A DNA stretch of 64,000 nucleotides, from contig JANWIJ010000042.1 in NCBI GenBank assembly GCA_025449935.1, positions 54,112 through 118,111 on the forward strand. The letters are read 5' to 3'. Within the stretch, counting starts at the first letter, position 1, and each line of letters starts with the position of its first letter. Position numbers and translations under genes: made by a program. Positions 1 to 16,180 of the stretch are shown here, piece after piece. This DNA comes from Chitinophagaceae bacterium. GTDB lineage: Bacteria; Bacteroidota; Bacteroidia; Chitinophagales; Chitinophagaceae. The notes below the pieces were generated by a model. The model saw only the letters and a program-made list of their open reading frames with translations, did not search any database and had not been told where the DNA came from.

Positions 1-3000
1 TTGGCCCGCTTGTCTGCGCCAAACTTTACCAACAATTGGGCGGCGGCCAGGTTATTACTGTAAGCTGCAGCCATAAGCGGGGTGAACATACCTGCTGACT
101 CATTTGTGTAATTGATATTAACGCCGTTATTAACAAGCCATTCAAGGCTTTGCTGCTTTTTCTGAAAAATGGCCACAAAAACTGCACTAATGCCTTCTCC
201 ATAGTGCCAGTAATCAAGGTCCAGTTTTTCTGCTTTATAAATTGAATCAGCGGATAATACGTTCCCGGAAGCCAGGAAACGCATCATCTCATAATGAATG
301 CTTTCCCGTTGTTTTACTTTTTTAAAATCCGCCAGCATGGACAAAATAAAAGGGGTGGAGCGCAGCTTCAGTGTATCCATGTGCCAGGACAGATCAACCT
401 GTTCTTTCACCACGGCGCCCTTATCCAGCAAATAATAGACGATTTTTTCATGCCGGTTAATAGCGGCAAGGTATAAACAGCTGAATGGAAATTCTGATTT
501 CAGGCTCATATCGGCCTTTTTCTCCAGGAGGTACTTTACGGCGGTAAAAGCGCCTTGCCGGCAGGCATAATGCAGGGCGGTGAAACCCCGTTCATCTTTT
601 TTATTCACCGGAATTTTTTCCTGTTCAAGGCAAATTTTCAGTGTGGGAAGATGGTTGTTTTGTGCGGCCCAAAGGAATGCAGCAAAATAGGAATCACCGG
701 ATGAGAGCATGGCAATATCCTGGTATAAATTAGCCTGCCGGAATGAGGGTTGCTGCCTTCCTTTTGAAAGTCTTTTCACCATGGATGATACATAGTGCTG
801 GAGTTCGCTGATAGAAAGAATGCTGTCCTTATCAAGATCGGCATCACCTGATTTGAAAGCCGTAAGCAGGCTATAGGTAAATAACCCATTTTTTAAACTA
901 TCCGTTTCGAAGGCATATTCATTACCTGCGGAAGCGGCCATGATGTCTACGCCGTTGCCCTGGTTAAAATGATTGAATGCGAAATTAACTATGGAAGAAC
1001 GCTGTGATTTATTTTTTACCTTAAATCCCCTTGCCACGACGGCGCTCGTATCATCGCCCATGGTCTCTTCATAGATCATCGCCTCATCATCCGACAGCCC
1101 GCTGTTGCAGGCATCAATCATCATTATCTTTTTCCGGGCCGGGCTTGCCGCTACGGCATTATTTAAATCATCGATGTTGAGTCCTGTCGCAGCTGGATTG
1201 CCGGCTTCCCAATTATATGAAGACAAATAATAACTCCCTGATGCAGTATCCAGCATGCCATGTCCTGCATAATAAACAATCACCTGGTCCCTGGCCCTTG
1301 CTTTTTGGAGAAAGAGGCGAACACTGTCAATCGTCCTTGCTGATACCCGCTCGTTGGAACTTGTATAGGCATGGACATTTTCAAAGCTGGAAGTTGTTTT
1401 GAAATATTTGTAAATATCCAGCATGTCTTTCGCGGCGTAACGGAGATTATTCCGGGGGTCATTATATTGTGAAAGCCCGATTCCAACAAAATAAAGGTCC
1501 TTCTTCTTTTCGGGCATGGCATTCACATAAACATAATCACCGGGTGTTTCTTTTCCATCTTTGTCAGTAAGACAAACGCGGATATGATTACCGGCATCCA
1601 CGAGACTTATTTCAGCAGTGAAGATTTTATTGCTATTAAATATTGCGGCTGGTTTTCCGGGCGTGGGCCATAAGGCTGTCCCGTTTACATAGATCATCAG
1701 GCCCTGGACACCGGTTGCCGGGCCTTCCAGGGATATTGACAGGTTGACGCTTTGTTTTGAAAAATAAGGAACATTGTTCTTCCCGCTAATAACCACATCA
1801 GCTGCGATGTCAGCGATTGAAAATCGCCTGGCCCTTTTTCCCGTCATATTGCTGATAGCGTTGATAACCTTGCTGTCGGCATAACCGAAAGCATCCAATA
1901 CTTTGTCGGGACGATGAAATTTCGCATCCATCTGGAATGCCGGGTATTCTTTATCCTGTTCGGTCCAGGAAAGCATGTTGTAATATTTATTCTCGCCCAT
2001 ATAATTCCCGTCGGGCAGCAGAACAAGGTAGCTGGGTTGCAGTTCTCCCAATTCGTTGTAAGTTCCCCGGTTGGCATCTAAAACAATTTCAGCCAGCTGC
2101 CTGCTTTTGCCGGCATCCCATACTTTTATCTTTTCATCGCGGCCAAGTGTATATACCAGTGAGCTATGGGGATCTGCGGTTATTTTTTCAATACCCGACT
2201 GCGAACCCGCAACAGCCATTTTTTTCACGGAATTATCCCAGGTGACAAGCTCATCCTCCTTTGTATAATATTCCATGATAAAACTGATATATCGTTTATC
2301 AGGACTTACAACAAACCTGTCGGCGAAGGAATAACCTTCCGGGAAAGGGGTAACCTGGGTACTGTCAGCCAACTGAAAAATACCATGACCGGTGACAAAC
2401 TGTTTGCCGCCGGGCAGTACAAGGAGATCTCTTACCCGCCATTTACGCAATATTTTTTTTTCATCCAGCTTTATGATATGGATCAGTTTGGTTAAGCTGG
2501 TGGTTTGAGATTCCCAGTAGATGGTGAGTATGGAAGAGCTGCTGTCAAAACTGAATGCATCATACTTCCAGGACTGTTGAACAGGGTTTCCCTCATCATC
2601 TGTTAGCTTAATTGTGTGGAGGAGCAGTTGTTTGATATCATACCATTGCATTTCCCCTTTTTGTTTATTTAAAGCTGCCAGCGCATTCGGGAGGTGAATC
2701 CTGCAGCTGTCCGTTCCCGGGATATTCATCCGGAGATCAGTTCCCTTTTGCCATAAACCTGCCGGGGTATATGCCCGTCTGGCGGGACTATATAATTTTT
2801 TTGTAGCGGCAAGGGGTTTATAATCTTTGCTTCCCAGGAACCGGGCGGTATTGATGTGATAGTCCTTCCGCAAGCCAACCGGTTCCATTTTACCGTTTGA
2901 CAGGTCAAGAAATACGCCGTCGGAGAAATGACTGTTGACCTGCACCAGCAATTTACCCGGCTCGTCCGTCAGGTAAAAATTATCAATGGAAATGTTTTTG

Positions 3001-4130
3001 CGGGTGAGGCTGAAAAGATGCCCGGTATTCCGGAGCACTATATCTGCCCTGTCCTGTTGTGAATCTTCAATGAATGCGAAACAGCCCGTCGCAGGGCAAT
3101 AGGCAAAATCGATTGCCACCTCTTTATACAAATCCCGGAAAGCCGCCGGTTCCGAAGTCAATAACGGGTAACTGATGGTTCCCTTGTTGATTTTGGCAAC
3201 ATAATAAATACGATTCCTTATTTCTGTGGCGGATTGCTGCCGCCTGGTATTGGTCAGCCACACAGCTCCCGCCTCGTCCAGGACAAATGAATGATTTAAC
3301 CGCATACGTGAAGCAAACTGGTAATCCTGTTCGCCCAGTGCAAAAAAATCTTTCACGGAAACCTTATCCAGCAGCTTCATCCCGCGTATGTCAAACCATT
3401 GCAGGTAACCGGACAATAACACCAGGGTATCATTCCGGAATTGCATATTGGCAAAGAGGTCGCCTTCTTCAGGGACGGACAGCATCTTTTCAAAACGATC
3501 CCCTTTTTGTTTTAGAACAGCACGGGAAGTGGCCACCCATATTTCGCCATTGATGGTTTGAATGGCATTCACAGTTTCATGATCAATACCGCGTATATGC
3601 TGCAATATTTTTCCTTCGGCAGAAAATTCTACGATCTGTTGCGGCATGGCAGTTGAAAATTCTCCCTCGTTATAGCATAGCCGGAGTTTCCGGGTACTAA
3701 AATCAATGTCAACCAGCGGGTAATATCCGAAACGTGGCATACTGAGTTCAGGAGACCTGATAGTTTTCGGTATGGGTGTGGAATGCACTACCGACCCGGA
3801 AGGAAATTGTCTTTTTTGCAGGTAAAGGCTGTCTTTAGTTTCTGTGAGGGTATAAAAAAATGGCGCTGATGGATCGGCGATTAATAAGTCCGGTATAATT
3901 CCCGGGATTTTAGCAACAGGTATTCTTTTTTTCAGATCCGAGATAACAGCTGCATGGTCATCACCGGTGGTAACCAGGTACTGGCCGTCCGCGGAAAAGA
4001 CAGTTTTTTTTATATCAAAATTTTCGTGCCAGGGAAGCAGGACAGGTTTTACGCCCGGTTGCTGGGCCTTTCCAGCAGAATAAAAAAAGCAAAGTATCAG
4101 AAAGAGGGCCGGATTAAAGCATCTTTTCAT
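1..4130 (-). CDS. Secreted propeller / caspase-like / EF-hand / ankyrin-repeat protein (3' end outside window)
   Basis: An uninterrupted reading frame runs from an ATG at 4130 to the window edge, so at least 1376 residues are present and the C-terminus is missing. Seen: a signal peptide ending near SAGKAQ, a long beta-propeller-like region (about residues 25-800), an Ig-like segment, then a peptidase C14 (caspase) domain starting near residue 878 with catalytic His957 (YYAGHG) and Cys1008 (DACNSG). A canonical EF-hand loop, DLDKDSILSISE, follows at 1098-1109, and ankyrin repeats (TALHYA, TPLMAAAY) run from about 1145 to the edge. Inference: an exported, possibly calcium-regulated cysteine protease of Arg/Lys or Asp specificity with protein-binding modules at both ends. 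It is divergent from the small Tyr/Trp/Cys gene at 4323. The linker before the caspase resembles that of the protein at 10438, so the two are paralogues. Substrate unknown. Confidence 0.88.
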   Translation of the reverse strand, partial: MKRCFNPALFLILCFFYSAGKAQQPGVKPVLLPWHENFDIKKTVFSADGQYLVTTGDDHAAVISDLKKRIPVAKIPGIIPDLLIADPSAPFFYTLTETKDSLYLQKRQFPSGSVVHSTPIPKTIRSPELSMPRFGYYPLVDIDFSTRKLRLCYNEGEFSTAMPQQIVEFSAEGKILQHIRGIDHETVNAIQTINGEIWVATSRAVLKQKGDRFEKMLSVPEEGDLFANMQFRNDTLVLLSGYLQWFDIRGMKLLDKVSVKDFFALGEQDYQFASRMRLNHSFVLDEAGAVWLTNTRRQQSATEIRNRIYYVAKINKGTISYPLLTSEPAAFRDLYKEVAIDFAYCPATGCFAFIEDSQQDRADIVLRNTGHLFSLTRKNISIDNFYLTDEPGKLLVQVNSHFSDGVFLDLSNGKMEPVGLRKDYHINTARFLGSKDYKPLAATKKLYSPARRAYTPAGLWQKGTDLRMNIPGTDSCRIHLPNALAALNKQKGEMQWYDIKQLLLHTIKLTDDEGNPVQQSWKYDAFSFDSSSSILTIYWESQTTSLTKLIHIIKLDEKKILRKWRVRDLLVLPGGKQFVTGHGIFQLADSTQVTPFPEGYSFADRFVVSPDKRYISFIMEYYTKEDELVTWDNSVKKMAVAGSQSGIEKITADPHSSLVYTLGRDEKIKVWDAGKSRQLAEIVLDANRGTYNELGELQPSYLVLLPDGNYMGENKYYNMLSWTEQDKEYPAFQMDAKFHRPDKVLDAFGYADSKVINAISNMTGKRARRFSIADIAADVVISGKNNVPYFSKQSVNLSISLEGPATGVQGLMIYVNGTALWPTPGKPAAIFNSNKIFTAEISLVDAGNHIRVCLTDKDGKETPGDYVYVNAMPEKKKDLYFVGIGLSQYNDPRNNLRYAAKDMLDIYKYFKTTSSFENVHAYTSSNERVSARTIDSVRLFLQKARARDQVIVYYAGHGMLDTASGSYYLSSYNWEAGNPAATGLNIDDLNNAVAASPARKKIMMIDACNSGLSDDEAMIYEETMGDDTSAVVARGFKVKNKSQRSSIVNFAFNHFNQGNGVDIMAASAGNEYAFETDSLKNGLFTYSLLTAFKSGDADLDKDSILSISELQHYVSSMVKRLSKGRQQPSFRQANLYQDIAMLSSGDSYFAAFLWAAQNNHLPTLKICLEQEKIPVNKKDERGFTALHYACRQGAFTAVKYLLEKKADMSLKSEFPFSCLYLAAINRHEKIVYYLLDKGAVVKEQVDLSWHMDTLKLRSTPFILSMLADFKKVKQRESIHYEMMRFLASGNVLSADSIYKAEKLDLDYWHYGEGISAVFVAIFQKKQQSLEWLVNNGVNINYTNESAGMFTPLMAAAYSNNLAAAQLLVKFGADKRA

Positions 4131-4233
4131 AGCTTAAAAATAGGGATAATAATTCTTGCCGGATCCTGGCGTCCGTAACAGGCATCCAGCAGGAGGCAGC
4201 GGGAACGTATTTGGTTGCCCGGAAGAACAGGAA

Positions 4234-4279
4234 TACTCAATATTAGGTATTGGAGCAAATAGTGACATCGGTAAATTGC
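4234..4279 (+). promoter_or_regulatory. Cluster-type promoter: inverted-repeat site plus -7 box, for the first small peptide gene
   Basis: The site TACTCAATATTAGGTA (4234-4249) is the weakest member of the repeated TAC-N10-GTA family in this cluster. It is followed after 22 bp by TAAATTGC (4272-4279), a degenerate TAnnTTTG box, and a TTG at 4250-4252 gives a -33 element with N19 spacing. The inferred transcript starts about 40 bases before the ATG at 4323. Leftward, a possible -7 box for the propeller-caspase gene lies 24 bp away (4209-4202, TACGTTCC), which is off the usual spacing. Confidence 0.5.
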
Positions 4280-4322
4280 TGATCCAAAAAGATCATATTT
4301 TCAAAACCTAAATTTTAATCAT

Positions 4323-4733
4323 ATGAACAAGATCAAAATGTTGTTCTTCTTCCTGATGCTAACGGCTACCGTGGCATACGGGCAAAACGACAACGAAAAG
4401 AAAGTGACCAAAATTGAAAAGGGGGCAGTATTAACTGATGCTGACCTGGGGTTTTTAAGTATGGTGACCAATGCCGAACTGGCGGGTAACCGCAGTGCTG
4501 CCAAAATCGAAGCCACTGTTGACGGGAAAACCTATACGGTAGGCCAAACGCTCACAAAAGCTGACGCTAAAGCTATTAATAATGCCATCAAGGAATACCA
4601 GAAAGCGAATCCCGGGGAGAAAAATCCGACAAGGAATACAGAGAGTGCCCGTGGCGGTCTTTGCTACTACTGGTATTGGTATTGCGATGGCTATGGAAAC
4701 TGCTGGTGGTATAAGTACTGGTACTACTGTTAA
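4323..4733 (+). CDS. Small secreted protein with Tyr/Trp/Cys-rich C-terminal tail (paralogue 1)
   Basis: 136 residues. A signal peptide ends near AYGQ (residue 21). The middle part, with LTDADLGFLSMV and an alternating Ala/Lys helical stretch, matches the protein at 9855 closely. The last 23 residues (114-136) contain 14 Tyr/Trp and four Cys at 114, 121, 127 and 136 (C-X6-C-X5-C-X8-C), the last Cys being the final residue. An Arg-Gly-Gly sits directly before the tail (Arg110). I do not recognise a family. Inference: an exported precursor whose tail is a disulfide-bonded or cross-linked aromatic peptide, perhaps cut at the conserved Arg by a neighbouring caspase-like protease. Alternatives are a surface adhesin, a bacteriocin-like toxin or a structural peptide. 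No modifying enzyme gene is adjacent. Confidence 0.85.
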   Translation: MNKIKMLFFFLMLTATVAYGQNDNEKKVTKIEKGAVLTDADLGFLSMVTNAELAGNRSAAKIEATVDGKTYTVGQTLTKADAKAINNAIKEYQKANPGEKNPTRNTESARGGLCYYWYWYCDGYGNCWWYKYWYYC

Positions 4734-4754
4734 CAGGCCATTCTTAAAAGATTG

Positions 4755-4780
4755 AACCGGTTCCATGAGCCGGTTTTTTT
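4755..4780 (+). terminator. Rho-independent terminator after first small peptide gene
   Basis: Stem AACCGG (4755-4760) and CCGGTT (4770-4775) around a 9-base loop, followed by a run of T to 4780. It lies 22 bases after the stop codon. The same AACCGG-type stem follows the paralogue at 10244. Confidence 0.8.
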
Positions 4781-4802
4781 ATGCAGCAGACTATGCACTT
4801 TC

Positions 4803-7250
4803 TTATTTGTCGGGGAAATATTTTTTCAGCAGGGCTTTAAATGCCGGCATGTTCCGTACAGGTTCCAGGTCCGCATCATACTTCAGGGTAAAATAATTTC
4901 CGTATCCCAGTTTCAACGCTTTTTCAAGACTTTCCAGGGCAGCATTGTTATCCTGTGCCATGGCTTTATAACAAGCATGATGATACCAGGTCAGCGCTTC
5001 ATGCTGTTTGTAATTGAAAAGAAGATCCAGGAGAAAATTGGTGTTTTCTGTATTGACCAGCATACCCGGTGTGCGGAGGTAGGCATAAAATATCGACAGG
5101 TAGGAGAGATACTGCATATTGAATGTATGCGACTTGCTTTTAAATTCAGCAATTTCCTTTTCATCCGTAGCGGTGTAGGTTTTTCCAAAATACAGCTGCA
5201 GGTTCGTCACAAAACCTTCGGTAAACGTGGGTGCATACTGGACGGTTTTAATAAACCGGGCCATGGCATCCTTCACACTGTCTTCCCTTAATTCTACTGT
5301 CGCCAGGTTGAAATTGGCAAAGGGTTCAGTGCTGTCTGCAGCCAGTACCAGCCGGAAATATTTTTTGGCTGAATCAGGCTGGTTGTTCACGAAATAGATA
5401 TGACCGATATTATTATCGCAGATACTGCAGATGCCGCTATTATTCTTTTTGGCCAGGTTGTAATAATGGATGGCACTGTCGAGGTTATTATTTTTTGAAT
5501 AATAAATGCCTTTAAAGAAATAACCGTTTGATTTATCCTGGGGAGAATTAATCAGTTCATCAATGATGGCGAGGGCTTTGGAAGTTTTATCGTTAAACAT
5601 GTAAGCATTGGACAGTTGAATTTTTAAATCCGTTACGGCCGGGTATTCTTTTACCAGTCCCTCGTAAATACTTTCCGCCTTGTCAAACCGTTTCAGGTTT
5701 ACATAGATGGCCCCGAGCGTATATTTTGCATAATAATCATTGGGGCGCAGGTCCAGGTATTTCTGGAACACTTTATTGGCCTTGTCAAACTCGTACACAA
5801 AATTGTAGTTGACCCCGAGTGCCGACAGGGTATAGGCGGCATTGGGTTCCAGTTTTTCTGATTGCTCAAGCAGGTCGATGGATTTTAATACGGTGGGTTT
5901 ATAACCAATATTGTATTCCGTTTCAGACAATGCCCAGGTAAGCGCCATCGCATCCATGAATAATTTGCGGGCTTTGAGATTGGTGAACATGTAGTGCTGT
6001 TCTCCCAGCAGTTTGAGGCAGCTGTCCAGTTCAGCGGCGGCATAATAGCATTCGTCACGGGTAGAATAACTTGTTTCTCCCTTCAATAATGGGCTCACGA
6101 TGCCATTGAACCGTTCATTCAGCGCTGCCGCGAGGTTCCTTCGCATAACGGGTGTAAGCGGGTTGTCGGCATACCTTTTTACAAACAGTTTATAATCCCG
6201 GAGTGCATTGGTGTCGGTTGGCCAGATAAGCTTCCTGGCTTCCACATTGTCTTTAAAGGACGCGTATATCTTTTTTCCCGGTTCATCCAGCGAGTCTGTG
6301 TATTTTTCTTCATTGCCCTTTGTGTTGGCTACTGCCAGCATGGGATAGTTCTCTGCTTTTTGTTTTTTTAATGCCGCCAATACGGCCGGGTTCACCGAAG
6401 CAATTGCTTTGCTCAGGTCGCCACTGATCAGCGGGATTTGCTTGCCTTCGCTGTATTTTGCCACATTGGACTGGATATAACTCTGCAATTCAAACATGCT
6501 GACGATGCCGTTATTATCCATATCGGCCAGTCCTTTTATTCCTTCTTCCAGTTGCAACGAGAATAAACCCCGGCCACCGCCCCATTCCGCACTTTCAAGT
6601 GATAACTGGTTGGGCTGGCAGGAAAGTATCTTATATTCTTTGCCCCAGGCGGAGGCAAGGGCAGAAGCCGTCTGCTGAACACCTTCCACGCCACCTTTCA
6701 GGTTACCGGAGTGGCAGGCATCCACGATAAATATCATCTCAATTCCCTTTTGGGCCAGTGGCGACAGGTAGCGTTTCAGATCCAGAATTTCGAGCACATC
6801 ATCGTTCATGCCGAAATAATTTCCATTGGGGCTGTTGTACAGCAATAAAAGACCGTTTTCGATTTGCGTCAGGTCTTCCATATCACCATGTCCCGCGAAA
6901 AAGAAGTAGATCCGGTCCCCGGGTTTGGCTTTCCTGGCGAGCACCGAGATGGCGTCGCCGACATTGGTGCGGGTGGCATGCTCATTTAAAAATGTTTCAA
7001 TACTGGTCGCAGGAATTTTACCGCCTGCTTCGCTCAGTAAAAAACGTTCAAATGCCTGCGCATCCTTATCAGCATATTGGAGATCAGGCACTACTTTATA
7101 ATTGCTGATCCCGACGATGATCGCATAGGTATTTCCTGTTACCACCGAAGAATCCTGCTTTTTTTTCAGCCCGCGCTCATCCGGTTGGGCAGCAAGCTGC
7201 AGGGTGATACCCGCAAATAACAGTAATATGCAAAAACTTCGTAATGCCAC
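4803..7250 (-). CDS. Secreted caspase-like protease with EF-hand and TPR repeats
   Basis: 815 residues with a signal peptide (cleavage near LAAQP). The peptidase C14 domain begins at YAIIVGISNY (residue 42) and carries His121 (FFAGHGD) and Cys179 (VDACHSG), both needed for catalysis. An EF-hand loop, DMDNNGIVSMFE, occupies 243-254 just after the domain. From about residue 430 to the end there are TPR-like helical repeats (for example NDYYAKYTLGAIYVNLKRFD). Known: C14 proteases of bacteria cleave after basic or acidic residues, and TPRs bind proteins. Inference: an exported protease with a scaffold tail, possibly calcium dependent. It is divergent from the tandem caspase gene at 7372 and shares one inverted-repeat site with it. 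Its 3' end faces the first small peptide gene. Confidence 0.9.
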   Translation of the reverse strand: MALRSFCILLLFAGITLQLAAQPDERGLKKKQDSSVVTGNTYAIIVGISNYKVVPDLQYADKDAQAFERFLLSEAGGKIPATSIETFLNEHATRTNVGDAISVLARKAKPGDRIYFFFAGHGDMEDLTQIENGLLLLYNSPNGNYFGMNDDVLEILDLKRYLSPLAQKGIEMIFIVDACHSGNLKGGVEGVQQTASALASAWGKEYKILSCQPNQLSLESAEWGGGRGLFSLQLEEGIKGLADMDNNGIVSMFELQSYIQSNVAKYSEGKQIPLISGDLSKAIASVNPAVLAALKKQKAENYPMLAVANTKGNEEKYTDSLDEPGKKIYASFKDNVEARKLIWPTDTNALRDYKLFVKRYADNPLTPVMRRNLAAALNERFNGIVSPLLKGETSYSTRDECYYAAAELDSCLKLLGEQHYMFTNLKARKLFMDAMALTWALSETEYNIGYKPTVLKSIDLLEQSEKLEPNAAYTLSALGVNYNFVYEFDKANKVFQKYLDLRPNDYYAKYTLGAIYVNLKRFDKAESIYEGLVKEYPAVTDLKIQLSNAYMFNDKTSKALAIIDELINSPQDKSNGYFFKGIYYSKNNNLDSAIHYYNLAKKNNSGICSICDNNIGHIYFVNNQPDSAKKYFRLVLAADSTEPFANFNLATVELREDSVKDAMARFIKTVQYAPTFTEGFVTNLQLYFGKTYTATDEKEIAEFKSKSHTFNMQYLSYLSIFYAYLRTPGMLVNTENTNFLLDLLFNYKQHEALTWYHHACYKAMAQDNNAALESLEKALKLGYGNYFTLKYDADLEPVRNMPAFKALLKKYFPDK

Positions 7251-7280
7251 TTGCCGGAATATTCTTTTGAGAATTAATTT

Positions 7281-7356
7281 TAAAGGTAATAAAGTTTGAT
7301 TATGAACAACTACCCGCCGGAGGGTATTAAAAACTGCCGTTATAGTTATATCTTTT
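7281..7356. promoter_or_regulatory. Divergent promoter pair sharing one central inverted repeat
   Basis: The palindrome TACCCGCCGGAGGGTA (7311-7326) has a -7 box exactly 22 bp away on each side: TATCTTTT (7349-7356, plus strand, for the gene at 7372) and TACCTTTA (7288-7281, minus strand, for the gene starting at 7250). Neither box has a TTG at N19; the palindrome ends where the -33 element would lie. If -7 boxes sit at their usual place, the palindrome centres near -42 on both transcripts, the position of a class II activator. The activator is not identified. Confidence 0.65.
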
Positions 7357-7371
7357 CAGCAAATCGCGAGC

Positions 7372-9606
7372 ATGCCCGGCCTGCAAAAAATAATAATTAC
7401 CTGTTTATCAGTTTTTGGCTTGCTGTACGGTCCCCGTTCATTCGCTTATACGGGTATAAATGCCGGGACCACAATAGTCCTGGAGCACAGCCAGTATCCT
7501 CCAGCCATAAAAAAATATAATGCAAGTGAAGCATATGTGCTCTATTGGGGTACCGGGTTTGGTGCAAAACAGTTACAGGGGACTATTCTTCGCAAGGATA
7601 CCATCATCAATTATAAAAAATTCACGGAATCATTTCCCAATGGGACCGGTTTCCGGCTGGTTTATTCAACGGGAGATAATATTGACAGTGTTTATCAGCT
7701 GGATGCAAAATCCAGGATCACAGCTAAAGCCTATAACCTGGGCAACGGGAAGCTCCATATACTGGCTTTTGATACCCTGATGAAAAAAGTGGATGAGTTT
7801 ATCTACAATTATGCTGAAAAAATTGCAGCTATGGCCAACACCCGCGGTAAATCAGCCGGCGGGGAAGGCAGGTCCCTTGAATTGCTGCTAAGGCAATACG
7901 AGATTTACGATTCTTATGACAGGAATAATTATGCCCTGGCTTCTGTGTGGATACTTTCCATTGGTATTGACGACTACGGCCCGGAGCAATACGCCACCTG
8001 TAAATCCGATGCCCGGTCCTATGCTGAATTTTTCCGGAAACAATATACCCTTGGGCAGAACGCTGACCTTCATGCTTCATTAGTTCATGAATATGTGTTG
8101 CTCGATCAAAATGCTACCCGTGAAGCGATCCTGGATGCGTTGAAAGACATCGCCAGGAAATCTTCGTTGAACGATTATTTTATTTTTAATTTCAGTGGGT
8201 GCAGCAATGTTCTCAAAAATGACCCGGTAAACAGTGGTACCCACTTTTTCCCTTATGACGTGATTGTTGTCAGCCAGGCTTCAAGCGGGGCGGGACTTAA
8301 GAACAGGGATAGCAGGGATACTTCCGATCCTTATAAGAAAACAATTTCACTAAAAATACTCCAGGAGCATATACAGGCAATTCCCGCCAATAACCAGTTG
8401 TTTATTTCCGAAGCAGGGCCTTCCGGGAAATTTAAGACGGAGTTTATACGGACCCTGATGCAAAACTCCCCGGAGGTGGCCAGCATCCTGAACAAGAACA
8501 GGATTATCATCGTTCCTAATGGATTTGGCTACGATGGGGTAAGCTGCCTGGGAACTTTCATCGCAAAAGGACCTATCAATTATTATATAACCTCCCTGGA
8601 TTCAGCGAATATCTATGATCTTTTTAAAGAGGAGTCCCGGGCCAGCCCAATCGCTTTTAAGATAAAAAATAAGGCCTGGAACTGCCGGTCATTTAAAGAG
8701 GAGTATTTCGATATTTTTTTCGAAAGAAAATTCCTGAAGGAATACCAGGAAATTTTCGTGGACAGTGAAGGTCAATCCCGGGGACTGAAGCCCAAAGCAA
8801 AGGAACTGAGGGAAGTGGCTAATATATCGGGTAAACAATATGCCCTGGTGGTGGGCACGGATAATTATAAAGGAACGGGTTGGAAAAAACTACCCAATGC
8901 GATCAATGATGCAAGAGCCGTTCGCGATGAACTGGAGCGGGGTTATGGTTTCGAGGTTCAGTTACTCGAGGACAAACCGCTGGATACGATCTATAGAGCG
9001 ATCGGGGAGTACTACCGTATTTTGCAACCCGGCGATCAGTTTATCCTCTATTTTGCAGGTCATGGAGATATGGAAACCGAGTTCATGGATGATGGGTTTA
9101 TTGTCTGCACCGATTCAAAGTCCCGGGATGATGACCCTACCCGGAATACTTATATACAATATATCAAGCTGCAAAAAATGATTAACAAGATACCCGCGCG
9201 GCAGATACTTGTAATGCTGGATGTTTGTCATGGCGGTGTTTTCAACCAAAAAAGAAGCGATCCTGTCAGGACCTTGTCCAACAGGAATGTCCGACAGTTC
9301 CTCGCAGATCAGTCGCAATACACCTGCCGGAAATTTTTATCCTCGGTAGGGACCGACGAAGCTTTTGATGGCAAGCCGGGAGAACATTCGCCCTTTGCCA
9401 ACCTGTTATTGCAGGTATTGAGAGCCAGGGGAAACACTTCCAACGGCATTGTGACGCTATCGCATATTTTTTCGGTGCTCCAGACAGCCAGTATGAATGA
9501 AACAGCAACGCTGAAAATTTCTCCGCAAAAAGATGGGTTTGGGAAAGATAACCCGGAGAGTGATTTTATACTGATACCTGTACAAAACACTGGGGATAAA
9601 CAATAA
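7372..9606 (+). CDS. Secreted tandem caspase-like protein: inactive first domain, active second domain
   Basis: 744 residues with a hydrophobic leader (residues 5-25). Two C14-type domains are seen. The first starts near VWILSIGIDDYG (192); where active caspases have SGH it has SGCS (Cys277), and where they have DACHSG it has EAGPSG (347-352), so both catalytic residues are gone. The second starts near YALVVGTDNY (490) and keeps His564 (YFAGHGD) and Cys619 (LDVCHGG). Inference: a pseudo-protease fused to an active protease; the dead domain may bind a partner or substrate, or hold the active one in check. It is transcribed in the same direction as the small peptide gene at 9855 and the large caspase gene at 10438. 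The start is set by the leader and by the promoter ending only 15 bases upstream. Confidence 0.87.
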   Translation: MPGLQKIIITCLSVFGLLYGPRSFAYTGINAGTTIVLEHSQYPPAIKKYNASEAYVLYWGTGFGAKQLQGTILRKDTIINYKKFTESFPNGTGFRLVYSTGDNIDSVYQLDAKSRITAKAYNLGNGKLHILAFDTLMKKVDEFIYNYAEKIAAMANTRGKSAGGEGRSLELLLRQYEIYDSYDRNNYALASVWILSIGIDDYGPEQYATCKSDARSYAEFFRKQYTLGQNADLHASLVHEYVLLDQNATREAILDALKDIARKSSLNDYFIFNFSGCSNVLKNDPVNSGTHFFPYDVIVVSQASSGAGLKNRDSRDTSDPYKKTISLKILQEHIQAIPANNQLFISEAGPSGKFKTEFIRTLMQNSPEVASILNKNRIIIVPNGFGYDGVSCLGTFIAKGPINYYITSLDSANIYDLFKEESRASPIAFKIKNKAWNCRSFKEEYFDIFFERKFLKEYQEIFVDSEGQSRGLKPKAKELREVANISGKQYALVVGTDNYKGTGWKKLPNAINDARAVRDELERGYGFEVQLLEDKPLDTIYRAIGEYYRILQPGDQFILYFAGHGDMETEFMDDGFIVCTDSKSRDDDPTRNTYIQYIKLQKMINKIPARQILVMLDVCHGGVFNQKRSDPVRTLSNRNVRQFLADQSQYTCRKFLSSVGTDEAFDGKPGEHSPFANLLLQVLRARGNTSNGIVTLSHIFSVLQTASMNETATLKISPQKDGFGKDNPESDFILIPVQNTGDKQ

Positions 9607-9620
9607 GTACCGGGAAAAAA

Positions 9621-9667
9621 TACCAAATTCCGGGTATTGGAAACAGGTTTCCATGGGGGTATCTTTT
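9621..9667 (+). promoter_or_regulatory. Cluster-type promoter, distal, for second small peptide gene
   Basis: TACCAAATTCCGGGTA (9621-9636, one mismatch in the 5+5 arms) is followed after 23 bp by TATCTTTT (9660-9667). It lies 15 bases after the end of the tandem caspase gene and predicts a leader of about 180 bases. Confidence 0.5.
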
Positions 9668-9713
9668 CGAAAATTTTCAGCGCATGAATACCCGATAAAA
9701 AATAACCCCGGCG

Positions 9714-9760
9714 TACTCCAAATGGAGTATAGGCGGGATGTAGTAACCGACATAGATTTA
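9714..9760 (+). promoter_or_regulatory. Cluster-type promoter, proximal, for second small peptide gene
   Basis: TACTCCAAATGGAGTA (9714-9729) is a perfect inverted repeat with 7-base arms. A TAGATTTA box follows at 9753-9760 after 23 bp. The predicted leader to the ATG at 9855 is about 90 bases. Confidence 0.6.
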
Positions 9761-9854
9761 CGGGAATTTCAAAAATTCACTAAAAAAAGCTACCATTATC
9801 ATAGCAAAGAAGTTTTAATCAAACATCCATTTTAACACGTTAAATCGAACAATT

Positions 9855-10244
9855 ATGAAGAGAATTAAAATGCTATTATCAGCTTCCCTGCTGCTGATGT
9901 GTTCAGTAGCATTCGGGCAGGCTGAAAAAACAGTATCCGCCTTGCAGGCAGGAACCAAATTAACCGACAGCGACATTGGCTTTTTAAGCATGGTAGCTGG
10001 TGCAAGTATTGATGCAAACCGGGGTGCCGGCGAGCGTGAAGCAACTATTGGTAATGTTAGCTACAAAGCTGGGCACACACTCAGCAGCGCAGAAGCCAAG
10101 TCACTGGACAAAGCGGTCAAGAATTTCCAGAAAACGTACAAAGCTCCCGATGCATCACGGGGTGCCGGACTTTGCTACTACTGGTATTATTATTGTGATG
10201 GTTACGGGTATTGCTACTGGTATAAATATTGGTACTACTGTTAA
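9855..10244 (+). CDS. Small secreted protein with Tyr/Trp/Cys-rich C-terminal tail (paralogue 2)
   Basis: 129 residues, paralogous along its length to the protein at 4323. A signal peptide ends near AFGQ. The core contains LTDSDIGFLSMV and SSAEAKSLDKAVKNFQ. The last 23 residues (107-129) hold 15 Tyr/Trp and Cys107, 114, 120 and 129, the same C-X6-C-X5-C-X8-C spacing as its sister, again ending in Cys. Arg102 precedes Gly-Ala-Gly at the tail border, in the same place as Arg110 of the sister. The family is unknown to me. Inference: leader plus tail precursor, exported, perhaps processed at the conserved Arg. It lies between two caspase genes on the same strand and has its own promoters and terminator, so it can be made in excess of them. 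Confidence 0.85.
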   Translation: MKRIKMLLSASLLLMCSVAFGQAEKTVSALQAGTKLTDSDIGFLSMVAGASIDANRGAGEREATIGNVSYKAGHTLSSAEAKSLDKAVKNFQKTYKAPDASRGAGLCYYWYYYCDGYGYCYWYKYWYYC

Positions 10245-10256
10245 AAGATTTTCTTT

Positions 10257-10283
10257 AAACCGGTTCCCTGAACCGGTTTTTTT
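10257..10283 (+). terminator. Rho-independent terminator after second small peptide gene
   Basis: A perfect 10-bp stem AAACCGGTTC (10257-10266) / GAACCGGTTT (10270-10279) with loop CCT and a T run to 10283. The stem core matches the terminator at 4755, which suggests the peptide gene was duplicated together with its terminator. Confidence 0.88.
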
Positions 10284-10320
10284 ATTCCCGGTTGTCAACC
10301 GGCCGGTCTGTACATAAAGC

Positions 10321-10366
10321 TACCCACCCGCTGGTATGGCCAAAGGCATTTAAAATCCTATTTTTC
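10321..10366 (+). promoter_or_regulatory. Cluster-type promoter, distal, for the 1490-residue caspase gene
   Basis: TACCCACCCGCTGGTA (10321-10336, one arm mismatch) is followed after 22 bp by TATTTTTC (10359-10366). It lies just downstream of the peptide terminator, so the next gene has its own start of transcription. Confidence 0.5.
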
Positions 10367-10378
10367 TGAGACCCGATT

Positions 10379-10424
10379 TACCCTCCATGGGGTATTCTGA
10401 TAAGAATGGATAGTAGTAATTTTC
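10379..10424 (+). promoter_or_regulatory. Cluster-type promoter, proximal, for the 1490-residue caspase gene
   Basis: TACCCTCCATGGGGTA (10379-10394; arms TACCC/GGGTA) is followed after 22 bp by TAATTTTC (10417-10424). The predicted transcript would begin about 8 bases before the ATG at 10438, giving a very short leader. It repeats the layout of the site at 10321, 58 bp upstream. Confidence 0.55.
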
Positions 10425-10437
10425 GTAAAATTTTTAG

Positions 10438-13400
10438 ATGGAGGCCCGTCAGATATATCCAGTACTCATAAGTATTCTTTTGGCAGTAAACCTGCAGGCA
10501 CAGCCCATCCAGCCGCTGCCGCGCAGTGTATTTACCAGGGAGGAGTCAATGATCCGCACGACGCTCTATGTGCCTGATAGCAACCAGTTATTGGTTTTTC
10601 ACCAGAATAAATGCTGGCTTACCGACCGGGAAGGAAAGATTCTTCGTGGTCCCTTTATCCTCCAGGATGATGGAACTGATGCGTGGTACCCTCGCATTTC
10701 GGCGTCCGGAAAAACCGTGGTTTTCTATATCCCAGAGCCAGATTGGATGGCCGACAATGACCGGATGGCTTTGTACAATCTTGATTCGGGGTATATCGTG
10801 GGGACGTACAAAATACCGATGATGAGTGATATTGACCGGGTACGTTTTTCCGGGGATTCCATATTTCACTATTATACAAGCTATGACAAATACAAAGGCA
10901 TTTATACCTGGTACACGGGTATGGGTAAAGTGAAGCTTGAGTCGCTGGTAGAAGACAGTTCGCACAGTGGCGTGTACGACCTGGCCTATTACAAGGATAG
11001 GATCGTGGGAGCGGTTCGTTCTGCGGATACACTTTTGCTCGTTAGTACCGATAGCAAGCGCCAGTTCTTTGAGGTCTTTAAACTGGGCAGTGTTTCCGTA
11101 AAAAATATCGTGCAGTTCTCGCAGGGTTATCCATATGCCCTGGCAGGTGATGAAGGTACCGGGCAGACAAGAATATTTAAACCCGCGGATACCAGTTTTA
11201 TACTTATCGCTACCCTGCCCCTTTTACCGGAAATATATGCAGCTGCCGGTACTGGTGAAAACTGTTATATCCTGTACCGTGATACAGCCTCAAAAAATGA
11301 CAGGACCCTGAAATTATTTGATACGAGGAGCGGTACGGCGAGGCCGGTGACCGGGGTTCCCCCGGATGCTGCAGGTTATATATATAATATATACCCGGAA
11401 AAAGAATTATTTACTGCCAGTCACCCAACCAATGGCACCATCACGGCTTTTAATCTTACCGACACAAAAGAGGCCTGGACCACATCCCCGAAACCCGCGT
11501 CCGCCATCTCAGTAAATAATAAACCCGGCAGCACCGACAACCGCCTCTTTAAGGTGTTGATCAAACAGGGCAGTGAGAATGTTGCAAGTTCCCATTACAA
11601 CGCCGGGACCAACCAGATTTCCCTGGTAAAGAATAATGGTAAACTGGTCACCGTGGACGCTGATGCCAAATGCGCAGTTCGGTGGGAACAATTTTATAAA
11701 GATGATAACCGCCTGAGCATAGTAAAACTGTTGCCGGGCACCAAATACATTTTATACAGCGAAGAAAAATGGAAAAAGAACCTGAATGCTGACGACCTGG
11801 ATGTGGAGCGGTTTAGTTACCAGTATCCTTATGCCGCCAAAGTCTTTGACCGGGAGTCAGCGAAAATAATTTTTAACCTGCAGTCACAGGATCCCGCGGA
11901 TATCCGTGTCCTCAATGATTCGTTGATTTACTGGCTGGGAGAAATGATCCCGGAGGGCAGGCATTCTGTCACCATCTATAACCTGAACACGGGTGTGGCA
12001 AAAAATATCCGCCCTTTCCCCCCGGGAGATATAACCGGGTATACTGTCAATTTTATCAATGGCAGGTTTTATTACCTCATGACAACGGGAGATAAAAAAT
12101 TAATGCTGGCAAATGAGTCGGGCAAAATTATCTTCCGCGAGCCATATCCTTACGAAAATGAGTTGGAGGACACGTACTTATATGTTGATAACTCTCCCTA
12201 TTTCTATTTTAATGGAAGCGAAAAGAAAACAGGGTCCCCGTTGTATAAAATACAGGGGGACTCAGTCCTGTTGATAAAAAGGCTCCCCCCCGGTATATCC
12301 GTCCTCGCTGCCAAATCAACTCCCACGGGGGTCTATTTCATGTATAAGAAGGAATATGTAAGAAAAAAAGAGAATGTTTATCATTACCGGCTCATCAATA
12401 TGATGACGGGAAAGGACAGGTTGATTGACTCGGTTGGTATTTATAATGATAAAACCTACGCGAAGTACGAACCATTCCCGGAAGAAAATTACTATACAAA
12501 AAATACGGATAATATCATCAGCTGGCATGATCTCAACAGCGGGTATGAGTTTAAAAATTTTGGCCGGGATGAAACCAGCATTATCTCGATCGCGTATAGC
12601 CCGGAGGGACGTTACCTGGCAGCCGCTAACCCGGATGGAAAAGTGATGTTATGGGACCTGGGAACAGGAAAAGAAACCCGGACATTAACCGTAGGAACGG
12701 GTGGGTATATTACCAAACTGGCTTTTAGTGGTGACGGTCAATACCTGGCTGCCTCCAGTGGTGATATCTGGGAAACCGCCACCGGTAAGAATGTAGTAAG
12801 TGTTACCGATGGGAGTATATGGGCGGTCAACAGTATTGATTTTTCCCTGGATGGTAAGCGAATTATCAGCGGCGGGGCCTGTGTGATCAGCTGGGATGCC
12901 GCCGACGGAAGCAAGCTCATTTATCACCAGGAACCGGGCGAAAAAGATATGGACAAGACAAACCAATGCTGGAACCGGTATGGTTGTGTAAGTCCTGATT
13001 ATAAATTTATGGTGCACAGTACAGCGATCCATCCAAACAGCCAGGATTTTGTTGTCGGGAACATGAGCGGGGTAATCCAAAAATGGAATACTGAATTACG
13101 TGCACTCCAGGCCTATAAAGTCCTGGAATATGTTGCCGGGCAAACAGACCGGAAAGTATACGACCTGAAATATACCCGGGATGGTAATTATGTTATTGCT
13201 GTCCAGCAAAAATGTATTTACCGCCTGGACGCAACTACTTTAGCGGTGCAGGATTCTTTGCTGATTCCCGAAGGAGAAGAGATACTGGGGATTGATATGG
13301 GATATGATAATCTTGTATTCGGCTGCATCACCCGCCGGAAGAACGAGCGGATTTTCCAGATAAGAAATATCACGGACCTTAAAGTGAAACAGGAGTTTTA

Positions 13401-14910
13401 TGCCGAAGGTGCATCGTTTAATAAAATATCCTTTTCACCCAATAAAACACAGGCCGCCACCGCCAGTGATGACGGGTTCTGTACTATCTGGGACCTCGCA
13501 AGCGGCAAGCCGGTGATGTACCTGAGCACGATCGGTGAATATGGTAATATCATGGTTACACCGGATAATTATTATATGGCTTCCAAATCCGCACTGGAAG
13601 GAGTTACATTTTTTAAGGACAGCAGCTTTTATTCTTTCGACCAGTTTGACCTCTATCTCAACCGCCCCGATATTGTCTTAAACAGGCTAGGGTATGCATC
13701 TCCTGAACTCCTGAATTTTTACAGGAATGCTTATTACAAACGGCTAAAAAAAATTACGGGAAATGTAAATGACACCGTGGTGAACGACTATGTGCCTTCG
13801 CTGAAGCTCAGCAATAAAAAATCAATCCCGGTAGTTACGGACACAGGATCGGCTGCGCTGGTATTTGAGATTGCCGATTCTTCGGCACAGAAGGGAACTA
13901 TTCGCATTTACATCAACGGGAACCTGGTAAAGGAACACCGCTTTACTGAAACAATCCCGTCTTCATTAACTTATGCTGACTCGGTAGTCCTCAGCCAGGG
14001 TATTAATAATATTGAAGCGGTCTACAGTTCGCAGTCATCCATTGAAAGCCGGAAAGAAAAAGTGTCTGTTGCTTATTCCCCGCGGAAACGGGTACAACCG
14101 AAGGTTTGGTTTATCGGGGTGGGTATATCCAAATACCGGGATGCCGACATGAATCTGAAATACCCGGTGAAAGATATCCGGGACATTGCCCGCGACTTCA
14201 AGAAAAAATATCCCGGCATCATCATCGATACGCTGCTCAATGAAAAAGCGACCCGGGAAAATATACTGGCCCTTCACGATAAATTAATGAATACGTCGGT
14301 CAACGATAAAGTAATCGTTTCGTTCAGCGGGCATGGATTGTTAAGTGACAGCCTGGACTGGTATTTCGCTACGCAGGATATTGATTTTAAAAAGCCAGAG
14401 CAACGCGGGCTGCCCTATTCCATGATGGAAGGCATACTGAACGGGATACCGGCCCGGCAGAAATTATTGCTGCTGGACGCCTGCCATAGCGGGGAAGTGG
14501 ACAAAGAATCCGATATCACCTTTGCTAATAAAGAAACGGGAATGGAGGAAGACGTTGTAGCCACGGCGAAAGGGGTGATCATAAAAGGAAGGAGCCAGGT
14601 AGGATTACAGACAAGTTTTGAACTGATGCAGGATATGTTTGCCAATCTCGGCAAGGGAAATGGCACTACGGTACTTTCGGCAGCCGGCGGAAAAGAATAT
14701 GCTTTTGAAAGTGATAAATGGAAGAACGGGGTCTTTACCTACAGCCTCCTGAAAGCATTAAAAGATCCGGCCACTGATGAAAACCAAAATAAAAAAATAT
14801 CCGTCCGGGAATTGAAAAAAGCCGTTTTCGATGCCGTCAAAAAACTAACCGGCGGGCGACAGAAACCTACCAGCCGGGTGGAAGTGCTGGATGACTGGGA
14901 CATCTGGTAA
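10438..14910 (+). CDS. Large secreted beta-propeller (WD40-like) / caspase-like / EF-hand protein
   Basis: 1490 residues. A signal peptide ends near LQAQP. An irregular propeller region covers about residues 30-690, clear WD40 repeats follow at about 700-1070 (SPEGRYLAAANPDGKVMLWD), then a linker (LNRPDIVLNRLGYASPELL, about 1075), an Ig-like segment, and a C14 caspase domain from about 1223 with His1299 (SFSGHG) and Cys1349 (LDACHSG). A degenerate EF-hand loop, DENQNKKISVRE, lies at 1447-1458. Layout and linker match the partial gene at 1-4130, except that this protein stops after the EF-hand and has no ankyrin repeats. Inference: an exported protease with a large substrate-binding or anchoring propeller, controlled together with the other three caspases and the two peptides. 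Substrate unknown. Confidence 0.9.
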   Translation: MEARQIYPVLISILLAVNLQAQPIQPLPRSVFTREESMIRTTLYVPDSNQLLVFHQNKCWLTDREGKILRGPFILQDDGTDAWYPRISASGKTVVFYIPEPDWMADNDRMALYNLDSGYIVGTYKIPMMSDIDRVRFSGDSIFHYYTSYDKYKGIYTWYTGMGKVKLESLVEDSSHSGVYDLAYYKDRIVGAVRSADTLLLVSTDSKRQFFEVFKLGSVSVKNIVQFSQGYPYALAGDEGTGQTRIFKPADTSFILIATLPLLPEIYAAAGTGENCYILYRDTASKNDRTLKLFDTRSGTARPVTGVPPDAAGYIYNIYPEKELFTASHPTNGTITAFNLTDTKEAWTTSPKPASAISVNNKPGSTDNRLFKVLIKQGSENVASSHYNAGTNQISLVKNNGKLVTVDADAKCAVRWEQFYKDDNRLSIVKLLPGTKYILYSEEKWKKNLNADDLDVERFSYQYPYAAKVFDRESAKIIFNLQSQDPADIRVLNDSLIYWLGEMIPEGRHSVTIYNLNTGVAKNIRPFPPGDITGYTVNFINGRFYYLMTTGDKKLMLANESGKIIFREPYPYENELEDTYLYVDNSPYFYFNGSEKKTGSPLYKIQGDSVLLIKRLPPGISVLAAKSTPTGVYFMYKKEYVRKKENVYHYRLINMMTGKDRLIDSVGIYNDKTYAKYEPFPEENYYTKNTDNIISWHDLNSGYEFKNFGRDETSIISIAYSPEGRYLAAANPDGKVMLWDLGTGKETRTLTVGTGGYITKLAFSGDGQYLAASSGDIWETATGKNVVSVTDGSIWAVNSIDFSLDGKRIISGGACVISWDAADGSKLIYHQEPGEKDMDKTNQCWNRYGCVSPDYKFMVHSTAIHPNSQDFVVGNMSGVIQKWNTELRALQAYKVLEYVAGQTDRKVYDLKYTRDGNYVIAVQQKCIYRLDATTLAVQDSLLIPEGEEILGIDMGYDNLVFGCITRRKNERIFQIRNITDLKVKQEFYAEGASFNKISFSPNKTQAATASDDGFCTIWDLASGKPVMYLSTIGEYGNIMVTPDNYYMASKSALEGVTFFKDSSFYSFDQFDLYLNRPDIVLNRLGYASPELLNFYRNAYYKRLKKITGNVNDTVVNDYVPSLKLSNKKSIPVVTDTGSAALVFEIADSSAQKGTIRIYINGNLVKEHRFTETIPSSLTYADSVVLSQGINNIEAVYSSQSSIESRKEKVSVAYSPRKRVQPKVWFIGVGISKYRDADMNLKYPVKDIRDIARDFKKKYPGIIIDTLLNEKATRENILALHDKLMNTSVNDKVIVSFSGHGLLSDSLDWYFATQDIDFKKPEQRGLPYSMMEGILNGIPARQKLLLLDACHSGEVDKESDITFANKETGMEEDVVATAKGVIIKGRSQVGLQTSFELMQDMFANLGKGNGTTVLSAAGGKEYAFESDKWKNGVFTYSLLKALKDPATDENQNKKISVRELKKAVFDAVKKLTGGRQKPTSRVEVLDDWDIW

Positions 14911-15064: not shown

Positions 15065-16180
15065 TCAAAACTTTACCACCTCCCAATAAGCTTTTTTCGG
15101 TTTCAGGTCCTTGTCAAAAAGCAGGGGATAATCTTTTCTTCCCCTGACCGGGAAATTATCGAGCCAGCTGTGCCGGTCCGATATATTCCAGAAAGTGATG
15201 CCGGATAATACATGTTTGTATTTGCGGAATATTTTAAAACACATTTTGTATACTTCAACTTGCTTTGCTTCCCTTTCCGCTGTATAGGTTGTATCATAGT
15301 CGGACGATTTTCTTTCCCTCGCATTGTGTTCTTTCGGATAAACGGAAATATCCAGCTCGGTTACCTGGAGCTTCAGGCCTAACTCAGCAAAACGGCTCAT
15401 CGTGCTGTCCAGTTGTTGTTCTGTAGGCTCGTTCAGGGCCCAGTGACCCTGCAGGCCAAGTCCATGAATGGGGACCCCGGCATCCTTCAACCCCTTTACC
15501 AGTTTGAAGATCTTTTCCCGCTTCACGGCGTTGATCTCATTATAGTCGTTGTAAAATAATAAGGCATCCGGGTCTGCTTCATGGGCATACTGGAATGCTT
15601 TGGCCACAAAATCTTCACCACAGATTTTATAGAATTCCGAAGGGCGGAAATATTCGTCTCCTTTATCAGAAATAACTTCATTCACCACATCCCAGGCATA
15701 AATGATTCCCTTATAACGTTTAACCACCATAGTAATATGATCCTTCAGGCGTTGCAGCAGCACCTCTTTGCTCACTGGATTGCCCGCGGCATCTTTGAAG
15801 AACCAGTTGGGAGCCTGGTTATGCCAGCAAAGGGTATGGCCACGCAGTTTCAGGTTATTTCTTTTTGCAAAAGCCGCAATGGAGTCGGCGCCTTCCCAGT
15901 TATACTCATTCTCCTTCGGATGAACAGGACCCATCTTCATCGCATTCTCCGGCGTCATGCTGTTGAACTCCTGTAAGATCAGCGCGGCTTCATCTGTTTT
16001 TAAGGCGCGGGGAGATACCGCCACGCCTACCGGGAAATACCCGGCATAATAATCCTTCAGTCCCTTGCCTTCATCTATAGTTGTATGGATGGATGGTTGT
16101 TGCGATTGCCCGGACGAGCCACAATGGATCCCTGGAAAAGCAGTTAAAGCAAAAAGTCCAATGTTGAAAAGTCTTTTCAT
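15065..16180 (-). CDS. Endo-1,4-beta-xylanase, GH10
   Basis: 371 residues, hydrolyses the beta-1,4-xylan backbone. GH10 motifs are seen in order: HTLCWH (115-120), WDVVNEV with acid/base Glu168, and LQVTELDIS with nucleophile Glu275. The leader ends in GIHC-GSSGQ; Cys20 may be lipidated although the lipobox is poor, so the enzyme is probably a surface or periplasmic lipoprotein. It is the last gene of the long leftward arm of the xylan locus, 17 bp after the GntP permease gene. Length fits a single-domain GH10 without a binding module. Being the only endo-xylanase in the window, it likely produces the oligosaccharides taken up by the SusC/SusD pair. Confidence 0.95.
   Translation of the reverse strand: MKRLFNIGLFALTAFPGIHCGSSGQSQQPSIHTTIDEGKGLKDYYAGYFPVGVAVSPRALKTDEAALILQEFNSMTPENAMKMGPVHPKENEYNWEGADSIAAFAKRNNLKLRGHTLCWHNQAPNWFFKDAAGNPVSKEVLLQRLKDHITMVVKRYKGIIYAWDVVNEVISDKGDEYFRPSEFYKICGEDFVAKAFQYAHEADPDALLFYNDYNEINAVKREKIFKLVKGLKDAGVPIHGLGLQGHWALNEPTEQQLDSTMSRFAELGLKLQVTELDISVYPKEHNARERKSSDYDTTYTAEREAKQVEVYKMCFKIFRKYKHVLSGITFWNISDRHSWLDNFPVRGRKDYPLLFDKDLKPKKAYWEVVKF

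Follow-up and report, generated by a model that had tools for sequence, protein, structure and literature searches.

Caspase-like genes and small secreted proteins at the locus

This report deals with a cluster of genes for caspase-like (C14) proteases and small secreted proteins in a bacterium of the Chitinophagaceae. The stretch of DNA that we analyzed, here called the window, is 64,000 nucleotides long (G000:C42:54112-118111) and belongs to a genome of 3.5 Mb; those of its relatives that carry names are Chitinophagaceae, apart from one labeled no more closely than Bacteroidia. At the left end of the window (3-14910), six genes follow each other in an unbroken run, in the order A (minus strand), p1 (plus), B (minus), C (plus), p2 (plus), and D (plus), with intergenic gaps of 69-248 base pairs (bp) and no further gene seen between them. 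A, B, C, and D encode the C14 proteins, and p1 and p2 are two small proteins with 53% identity, the sole matches of their family in the genome up to an E value of 10.

An earlier note on this DNA had described four contiguous C14 genes and two paralogous small proteins with nothing unrelated between them, all carrying export signals. This description holds, with C14 recognized by Pfam in all four genes and with six of the six starts resembling Sec signal peptides (these starts, like all those from which we call the small proteins and C14 proteins exported, were judged by eye). As an account of the whole unit, however, it was too narrow, as beyond the left edge of the window the unit also includes a fifth C14 gene (F), a thioredoxin-like gene, and a third small secreted protein (Sm3). 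In full, the unit has five genes of the C14 type, one for a thioredoxin-like protein, and three for small secreted proteins; it holds five of the 17 C14 matches in the genome. Its features are as follows, in window coordinates unless the prefix L001 is given.

L001:13669-14070, minus strand: Sm3, third small secreted protein, left of the window
L001:14188-16434, minus strand: F, fifth C14 gene (748 amino acids), left of the window
L001:16738-17922, minus strand: thioredoxin-like gene with a CGPC motif, left of the window
3-4130, minus strand: A, C14 domain (Asp 902, His 957, and Cys 1008 of the reading), ankyrin repeats, WD40 below the cut-off, signal-like start; extends past the left edge of the window (full frame of 1402 amino acids)
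4323-4733, plus strand: p1, 136 amino acids, aromatic-Cys peptide family, signal-like start
4491-4493, plus strand: Arg57 of p1, mid-protein Arg (R-S), possible upstream cut
4650-4652, plus strand: Arg110 of p1, in SAR-GG, predicted P1 of the maturation cut
4659-4733 (stop codon included), plus strand: core of p1, 24 amino acids with four Cys and 14 aromatic residues
4754-4776, plus strand: terminator-like hairpin and T run 3' of p1
4803-7250, minus strand: B, signal-like start, N-terminal C14 domain with intact dyad, then TPR repeats
7372-9606, plus strand: C, signal-like start, tandem C14, first domain without His and Cys, second intact
9855-10244, plus strand: p2, 129 amino acids, paralogue of p1
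10020-10022, plus strand: Arg56 of p2, in a mid-protein NR-GAG motif, possible second cut
10158-10160, plus strand: Arg102 of p2, in SR-GAG, within a predicted loop that precedes the hairpin; predicted P1 of the maturation cut
10170-10244 (stop codon included), plus strand: core of p2, 24 amino acids with four Cys and 15 aromatic residues, predicted beta-hairpin 106-114/120-128
10257-10279, plus strand: terminator-like hairpin and T run 3' of p2
10438-14910, plus strand: D, signal-like start, WD40, C-terminal C14 domain with intact dyad

On the right, the cluster borders on a gene for a GH10 glycoside hydrolase (window 15065-16180).

The five C14 proteins score between 54.5 and 96.4 bits with the C14 Pfam model (curated cut-off 21.4), and each of them has one domain in which the His-Cys dyad is intact. 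Further Pfam domains are WD40 in D (that of A falls below the cut-off), ankyrin in A, TPR in B, and a second C14 stretch in C. The label of a tandem dead/active protein that C had received is correct, because His and Cys have been lost from the first C14 domain, whereas both are retained in the second. Judged by its sequence, the first half of C appears to be a conserved pseudoprotease half; in the three genomes examined it has lost His and Cys and kept one S1 Asp (window 7372-9606). One relative of gene C (G410:C12:45294-47477) has an in-frame TGA. The EF architecture that had also been ascribed to these proteins stands only as a loop resemblance: A and B each have one strict 12-residue EF-like loop, lying inside the C14 domain, and D has a looser loop, found by eye, but no EF-hand Pfam model matches A-D up to an E value of 0.1 (for D, among the best 25 of 30 matches).

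Two families of small proteins with a junction arginine

Among approximately 5.8 billion proteins, the search with p2 yielded 131 relatives and a profile search 168, with lengths that are mostly 126-130 amino acids (in the best 120 of the 131 and the best 120 of the 168). Where the name gives the organism, the hosts among the matches listed are Ferruginibacter or other Chitinophagaceae. The proteins share one layout, in which a signal-peptide-like start is followed by a conserved pro-region, a Ser-Arg-(Gly)-(Ala)-Gly junction, and a core of 24 residues; in the window's copies, this core is rich in Tyr and Trp, with 14-15 aromatic residues next to its four Cys. An alignment of 37 rows shows no variation at the Arg preceding the core or at any of the four Cys; most of the invariant or nearly invariant residues fall in the core, and the core as a whole varies little. 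Many members have a further Arg motif near residue 56, which is missing from one subgroup, and the signal-like region shows no conserved lipoprotein Cys in the alignment.

The AlphaFold2 model of p2 (mean predicted local distance difference test, pLDDT, of 81.6) shows the core as a hairpin (106-114 and 120-128) with Arg102 in the preceding loop. A cut after the junction Arg would yield products of 26 (p1) and 27 (p2) residues. Pfam has no match for p1, p2, or Sm3 (the gasdermin pore domain included), and fold searches with Foldseek and VIA-align gave no decisive match, pilin or gasdermin folds included. Because the core hardly varies, our guess is that the mature aromatic hairpin acts at the surface or at a membrane interface, as a conserved peptide and not as a toxin that evolves fast. 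A distant homologue of the peptide (L023:143-688, E value 3.7e-9) is found in G392, a genome that is 82% complete and has no C14 match; this protein is without the Arg before its Cys-rich end.

The Sm3 family counts 69 database proteins, Sm3 included, and looks unrelated to the peptides. Its mature part is predicted to form a beta domain (residues 65-132, mean pLDDT of the model 84), with residues 37-64 as coil. The pro-region nonetheless follows the same plan as in the peptides, with an Arg motif, a short stretch, and then typically K-S-R-G before the first Cys; R41 and R62 are present in 68 and 69 of the 70 alignment rows, respectively. In the distant Sm3 copies of four genomes (G403, G424, G422, and G074), the Arg is retained with no Cys after it. 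Lipid attachment of Sm3, including release of a lipid-anchored form, is possible because Cys is common inside the signal-like stretch, being the majority residue near position 13, with the hydrophobic stretch continuing to Ala-Gln.

What the two families have in common is the junction itself. In 123 of the 123 peptides and 68 of the 69 Sm3 proteins, an Arg followed by Gly, Ala, or Ser precedes the first core Cys and is separated from it by 2-6 residues. The residue after the Arg is Gly in 94, Ala in 23, and Ser in six of the peptides; in Sm3 it is Gly 65 times and Ser three times, and the exception (P0133) is without a junction Arg. In both families, these Args are placed in predicted loops ahead of a well-predicted folded domain. 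As a control, we took 56 other small open reading frames (ORFs) from the same loci, chosen for signal-like starts by a crude hydrophobicity rule. At least one [SNTAKP]RG motif is present in five of these 56, as compared to 122/123 peptides and 69/69 Sm3 proteins, and two such motifs are present in 1/56, 87/123, and 56/69, respectively.

On the protease side, 34 C14 domains were aligned, taken from the window's genes, from some of the relatives, and from C14 proteins paired with Sm3. The dyad is present in 31 of them, and Asp occupies both metacaspase S1 positions in all of these 31, which makes a specificity for Arg or Lys likely. The positions were mapped through GCIND and D-x-C-H-S-G, the two motifs at which F aligns with PDB chain 4f6o; we take this chain, labeled only Metacaspase-1 in the match, to be yeast Yca1. 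According to a review, the potential S1 pocket of TbMCA2 comprises Cys92, Asp95, Ser156, and Asp211, and this predicted site is conserved in yeast Yca1 (PMC4357240).

Pairing of the small-protein genes with C14 genes

To see how often these genes lie together, we turn to 42 genomes of the genus, 394 of the family, and 376 of the order (adjacency counts are uncorrected for relatedness). Sm3 is found in 8, 16, and 12 of these, respectively, or 25 different genomes altogether. Of these 25, 24 have the junction Arg; the exception, G158, has a doubtful match of 98 amino acids that is also without a C14 neighbor. In 22 of the 25 genomes, Sm3 directly adjoins a C14 gene. The profile found 21 of these pairs, and the last is that of G383, where the contig begins inside the neighboring gene; across 164 residues, the C-terminal part of its product shares 45% identity with the corresponding part of the G339 C14 partner, and it was counted as a pair though the C14 domain itself falls off the contig. 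This tight pairing spans seven genera and two families. The two genes share a strand and lie 42-199 bp apart in 18 of the 21 profile-found pairs, with the C14 gene upstream in 15 of the 18. Sm3 is stronger evidence than the peptides for a pairing with C14 genes.

The peptide occurs in six of the 42 genus genomes and four of the 394 family genomes, one of the latter by a distant match. With the distant match left out, there are 10 peptide genes in seven genomes; the peptide is also found at seven loci of one genome collection, apparently the same genomes. Six of the 10 directly adjoin a C14 gene (p1, p2, those of G289, G400, and G421, and one of the two in G403), so that the peptide neighbors C14 genes in four genomes besides that of the window, in one case with the order rearranged. 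UBA2789 retains B, C, and the F-like, peptide, thioredoxin-like, and Sm3-like genes as a set, in a different order. The thioredoxin-like gene also travels with Cys-containing small proteins at related loci, where it was identified by resemblance (Pfam was run on the copy of the window's genome). It is a single ORF in L001, L017, and L036, and two ORFs in two metagenome assemblies (L018:3575-4796 and L022:3599-4843), a split that may reflect assembly error or decay.

Gene C, with matches counted at E values up to 1e-60, is present in nine of the 42 genus genomes, in five of them with the peptide in the cluster and in four (G410, G411, G418, and G426) beside an F-like gene; the copies in either setting are 51-57% identical. 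Peptide and gene C thus occur together in five genus genomes, the peptide alone in one, gene C alone in four, and neither in 32 (Fisher p = 8e-4, uncorrected for relatedness).

Proprotein processing and its alternatives

From the sequences, we consider it probable that the C14 proteins of the locus act as proprotein convertases with Arg specificity, whose substrates are the secreted proteins paired with them. The C14 proteases and the small proproteins would both be exported, after which a C14 protease would cut the proprotein behind the conserved Arg directly preceding the mature domain and so release the mature product outside the cytoplasm. A second cut could take place at the mid-protein Arg, and disulfides would form in the four-Cys core with the help of the thioredoxin-like protein. 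The earlier note had proposed that the proteases process, sense, or control the peptides; processing gains support from the invariant Arg, the same junction in the Sm3 proteins of seven genera, and the acidic S1 residues, whereas sensing and control do not. More tentatively, we propose that exported C14 relatives in the Chitinophagaceae and a second family of the same order are dedicated convertases, each with its own proprotein in the locus. Several such pairs would have been gathered into one cluster in the window's lineage, where two or more products unrelated to each other would be matured; one would be a four-Cys hairpin, rich in Tyr and Trp and approximately 26 residues long, with no resemblance to known peptide families.

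Bacterial caspase homologues are common, yet few have a known substrate, and they are usually treated as enzymes of cell death, stress, or defense. If the more tentative proposal is true, they would gain their first matched set of secreted physiological substrates; under the convertase reading itself, C14 relatives would act like hormone-processing enzymes outside the cell. A conserved protease-proprotein pair with a candidate cut site points to extracytoplasmic maturation and makes substrate, specificity, and role directly testable. In addition, the aromatic four-Cys core is an unusual and little-varying peptide for which Pfam offers no family and the fold searches no decisive match.

The closest known systems each share part of this layout. 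Arg-gingipain (clan CD, family C25) matures the FimA/Mfa1 pilins of Porphyromonas gingivalis (PMC5954841; families in PMC4357240). As is predicted here, a caspase-fold, Arg-specific protease outside the cytoplasm thereby trims the N-terminal pro-region of a secreted Bacteroidota protein, and in these type V pilins too the Arg directly precedes the mature domain, as in the 123/123 and 68/69 small proteins above. On the other hand, the proteases of the locus belong to C14 and not C25, their genes are paired side by side with those of the small proteins, neither small family has a decisive pilin match, and the peptide family is without a conserved lipoprotein Cys. Bacterial gasdermins are likewise small substrates whose genes adjoin that of a protease, of the C14 type or related to it, and they are cut after Leu or Arg, with a neighboring Gly needed in the case tested (PMC9612521). 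Their cut lies approximately 20 residues from the C-terminus, whereas the pro-region at our locus is N-terminal and the partners look exported. Orthocaspases and other prokaryotic metacaspases share the C14 domain, the His-Cys dyad, and WD40-type and other partner domains (PMC3501461, PMC6426788). Possible signal peptides on C14 proteins and operons with several metacaspases, Bacteroidetes included, have already been published (PMC3501461); a dedicated, paired, secreted proprotein substrate is not described in the available parts of PMC3501461 or PMC6426788.

Several observations weigh against the convertase reading. Three genes separate Sm3 from the C14 gene in G353, and no C14 gene is present in the 18 kb read around the Sm3 of G459. 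The other peptide copy of G403 is two genes away from a C14 gene, and three of the 10 peptide genes (that of G425 and both of G074) are on contigs without any C14 match in the whole-genome search; these contigs measure 10-17 kb, and one peptide gene starts four bases from the end of its contig. The idea that homologues might occur mostly without C14 neighbors was checked on these counts, and with six of 10 adjoining, one at two genes' distance, and three with no C14 on the contig, the link is real but not obligate. G410, G411, G418, and G426 carry gene C and the F-like gene with neither peptide nor Sm3, so the proteases would have other substrates or jobs there. The P1 residue is not safely read from the family, because bacterial caspase-like proteins that cleave after Leu are on record (PMC9612521), and the acidic S1 residues may be general in C14 rather than single out these substrates. 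Finally, looser patterns are commoner in the control set (RG at least once in 12/56, [SNTAKP]R[GSA] at least once in 15/56), and the members of both small families were collected by similarity, which weakens the motif control; given this and the crude signal rule, it shows the relative rarity of the motif, not its function.

The strongest alternative, though unlikely, is that the peptides simply ride along as passengers in a locus rich in C14 genes whose function lies elsewhere (in stress, surface signaling, or cell death), with the Arg cut by another protease or left uncut. Prokaryotic metacaspases have indeed been linked to signaling and cell death (PMC3501461), and the solitary peptides of G425 and G074 and the C/F-like pairs without small proteins fit such a reading. 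Against it speak the Sm3-C14 adjacency across seven genera, the return of the gene set in a rearranged locus, and the co-occurrence of peptide and gene C within the genus.

We rate somewhat lower still the possibility that the proteases are under the control of the small proteins, with the Arg loop inserted into the active site as a pseudosubstrate or slow substrate, and with Sm3 and the peptides acting as dedicated inhibitors or activation switches. Small protease inhibitors encoded adjacent to protease genes are a known arrangement, and the tight one-to-one pairing of Sm3 and C14 genes, as well as the position of the conserved Arg in a predicted loop, would suit it. The models, however, place that Arg in a linker ahead of a separate folded domain, as would be expected of a pro-region; moreover, most of the invariant and nearly invariant peptide residues are in the core, and three of 10 peptide genes are on contigs without a C14 match. 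Very improbable, lastly, is a phage-defense or conflict module in which activated C14 proteases free a membrane-active peptide: the general caspase model of PADLOC matches A, B, C, D, and F and gasdermin-protease pairs provide a precedent (PMC9612521), but the proteins appear exported, no nucleoside triphosphatase is found among the cluster genes scanned, the peptide core varies little, and B, C, and D reach 55.7, 80.5, and 74 bits with the model for EACC1-associated caspases (NCBIfam NF047832), below its cut-off of 140.

A gene cluster for ribosomally synthesized and post-translationally modified peptides was considered as well and is not supported: the large cluster genes scanned (A, B, C, D, F, and the thioredoxin-like gene) have their matches with C14 or thioredoxin models, none of them with a family known to modify peptides, and the right border is the GH10 gene. 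Two further neighborhoods deserve mention. In G339, three mutually similar small secreted proteins of 151-164 amino acids stand in tandem (L040:2201-4218), with one gene of 697 amino acids between them and a C14-like gene; they are possibly another paired family. Genes with a CHASE2 domain (L083:4727-5923, L082:1798-2979, and L005:7742-8995) adjoin C14-Sm3 pairs in two other genera and, at a different place in the window's genome, a C14 gene, which suggests that the CHASE2 protein may be an extracytoplasmic sensor partner.

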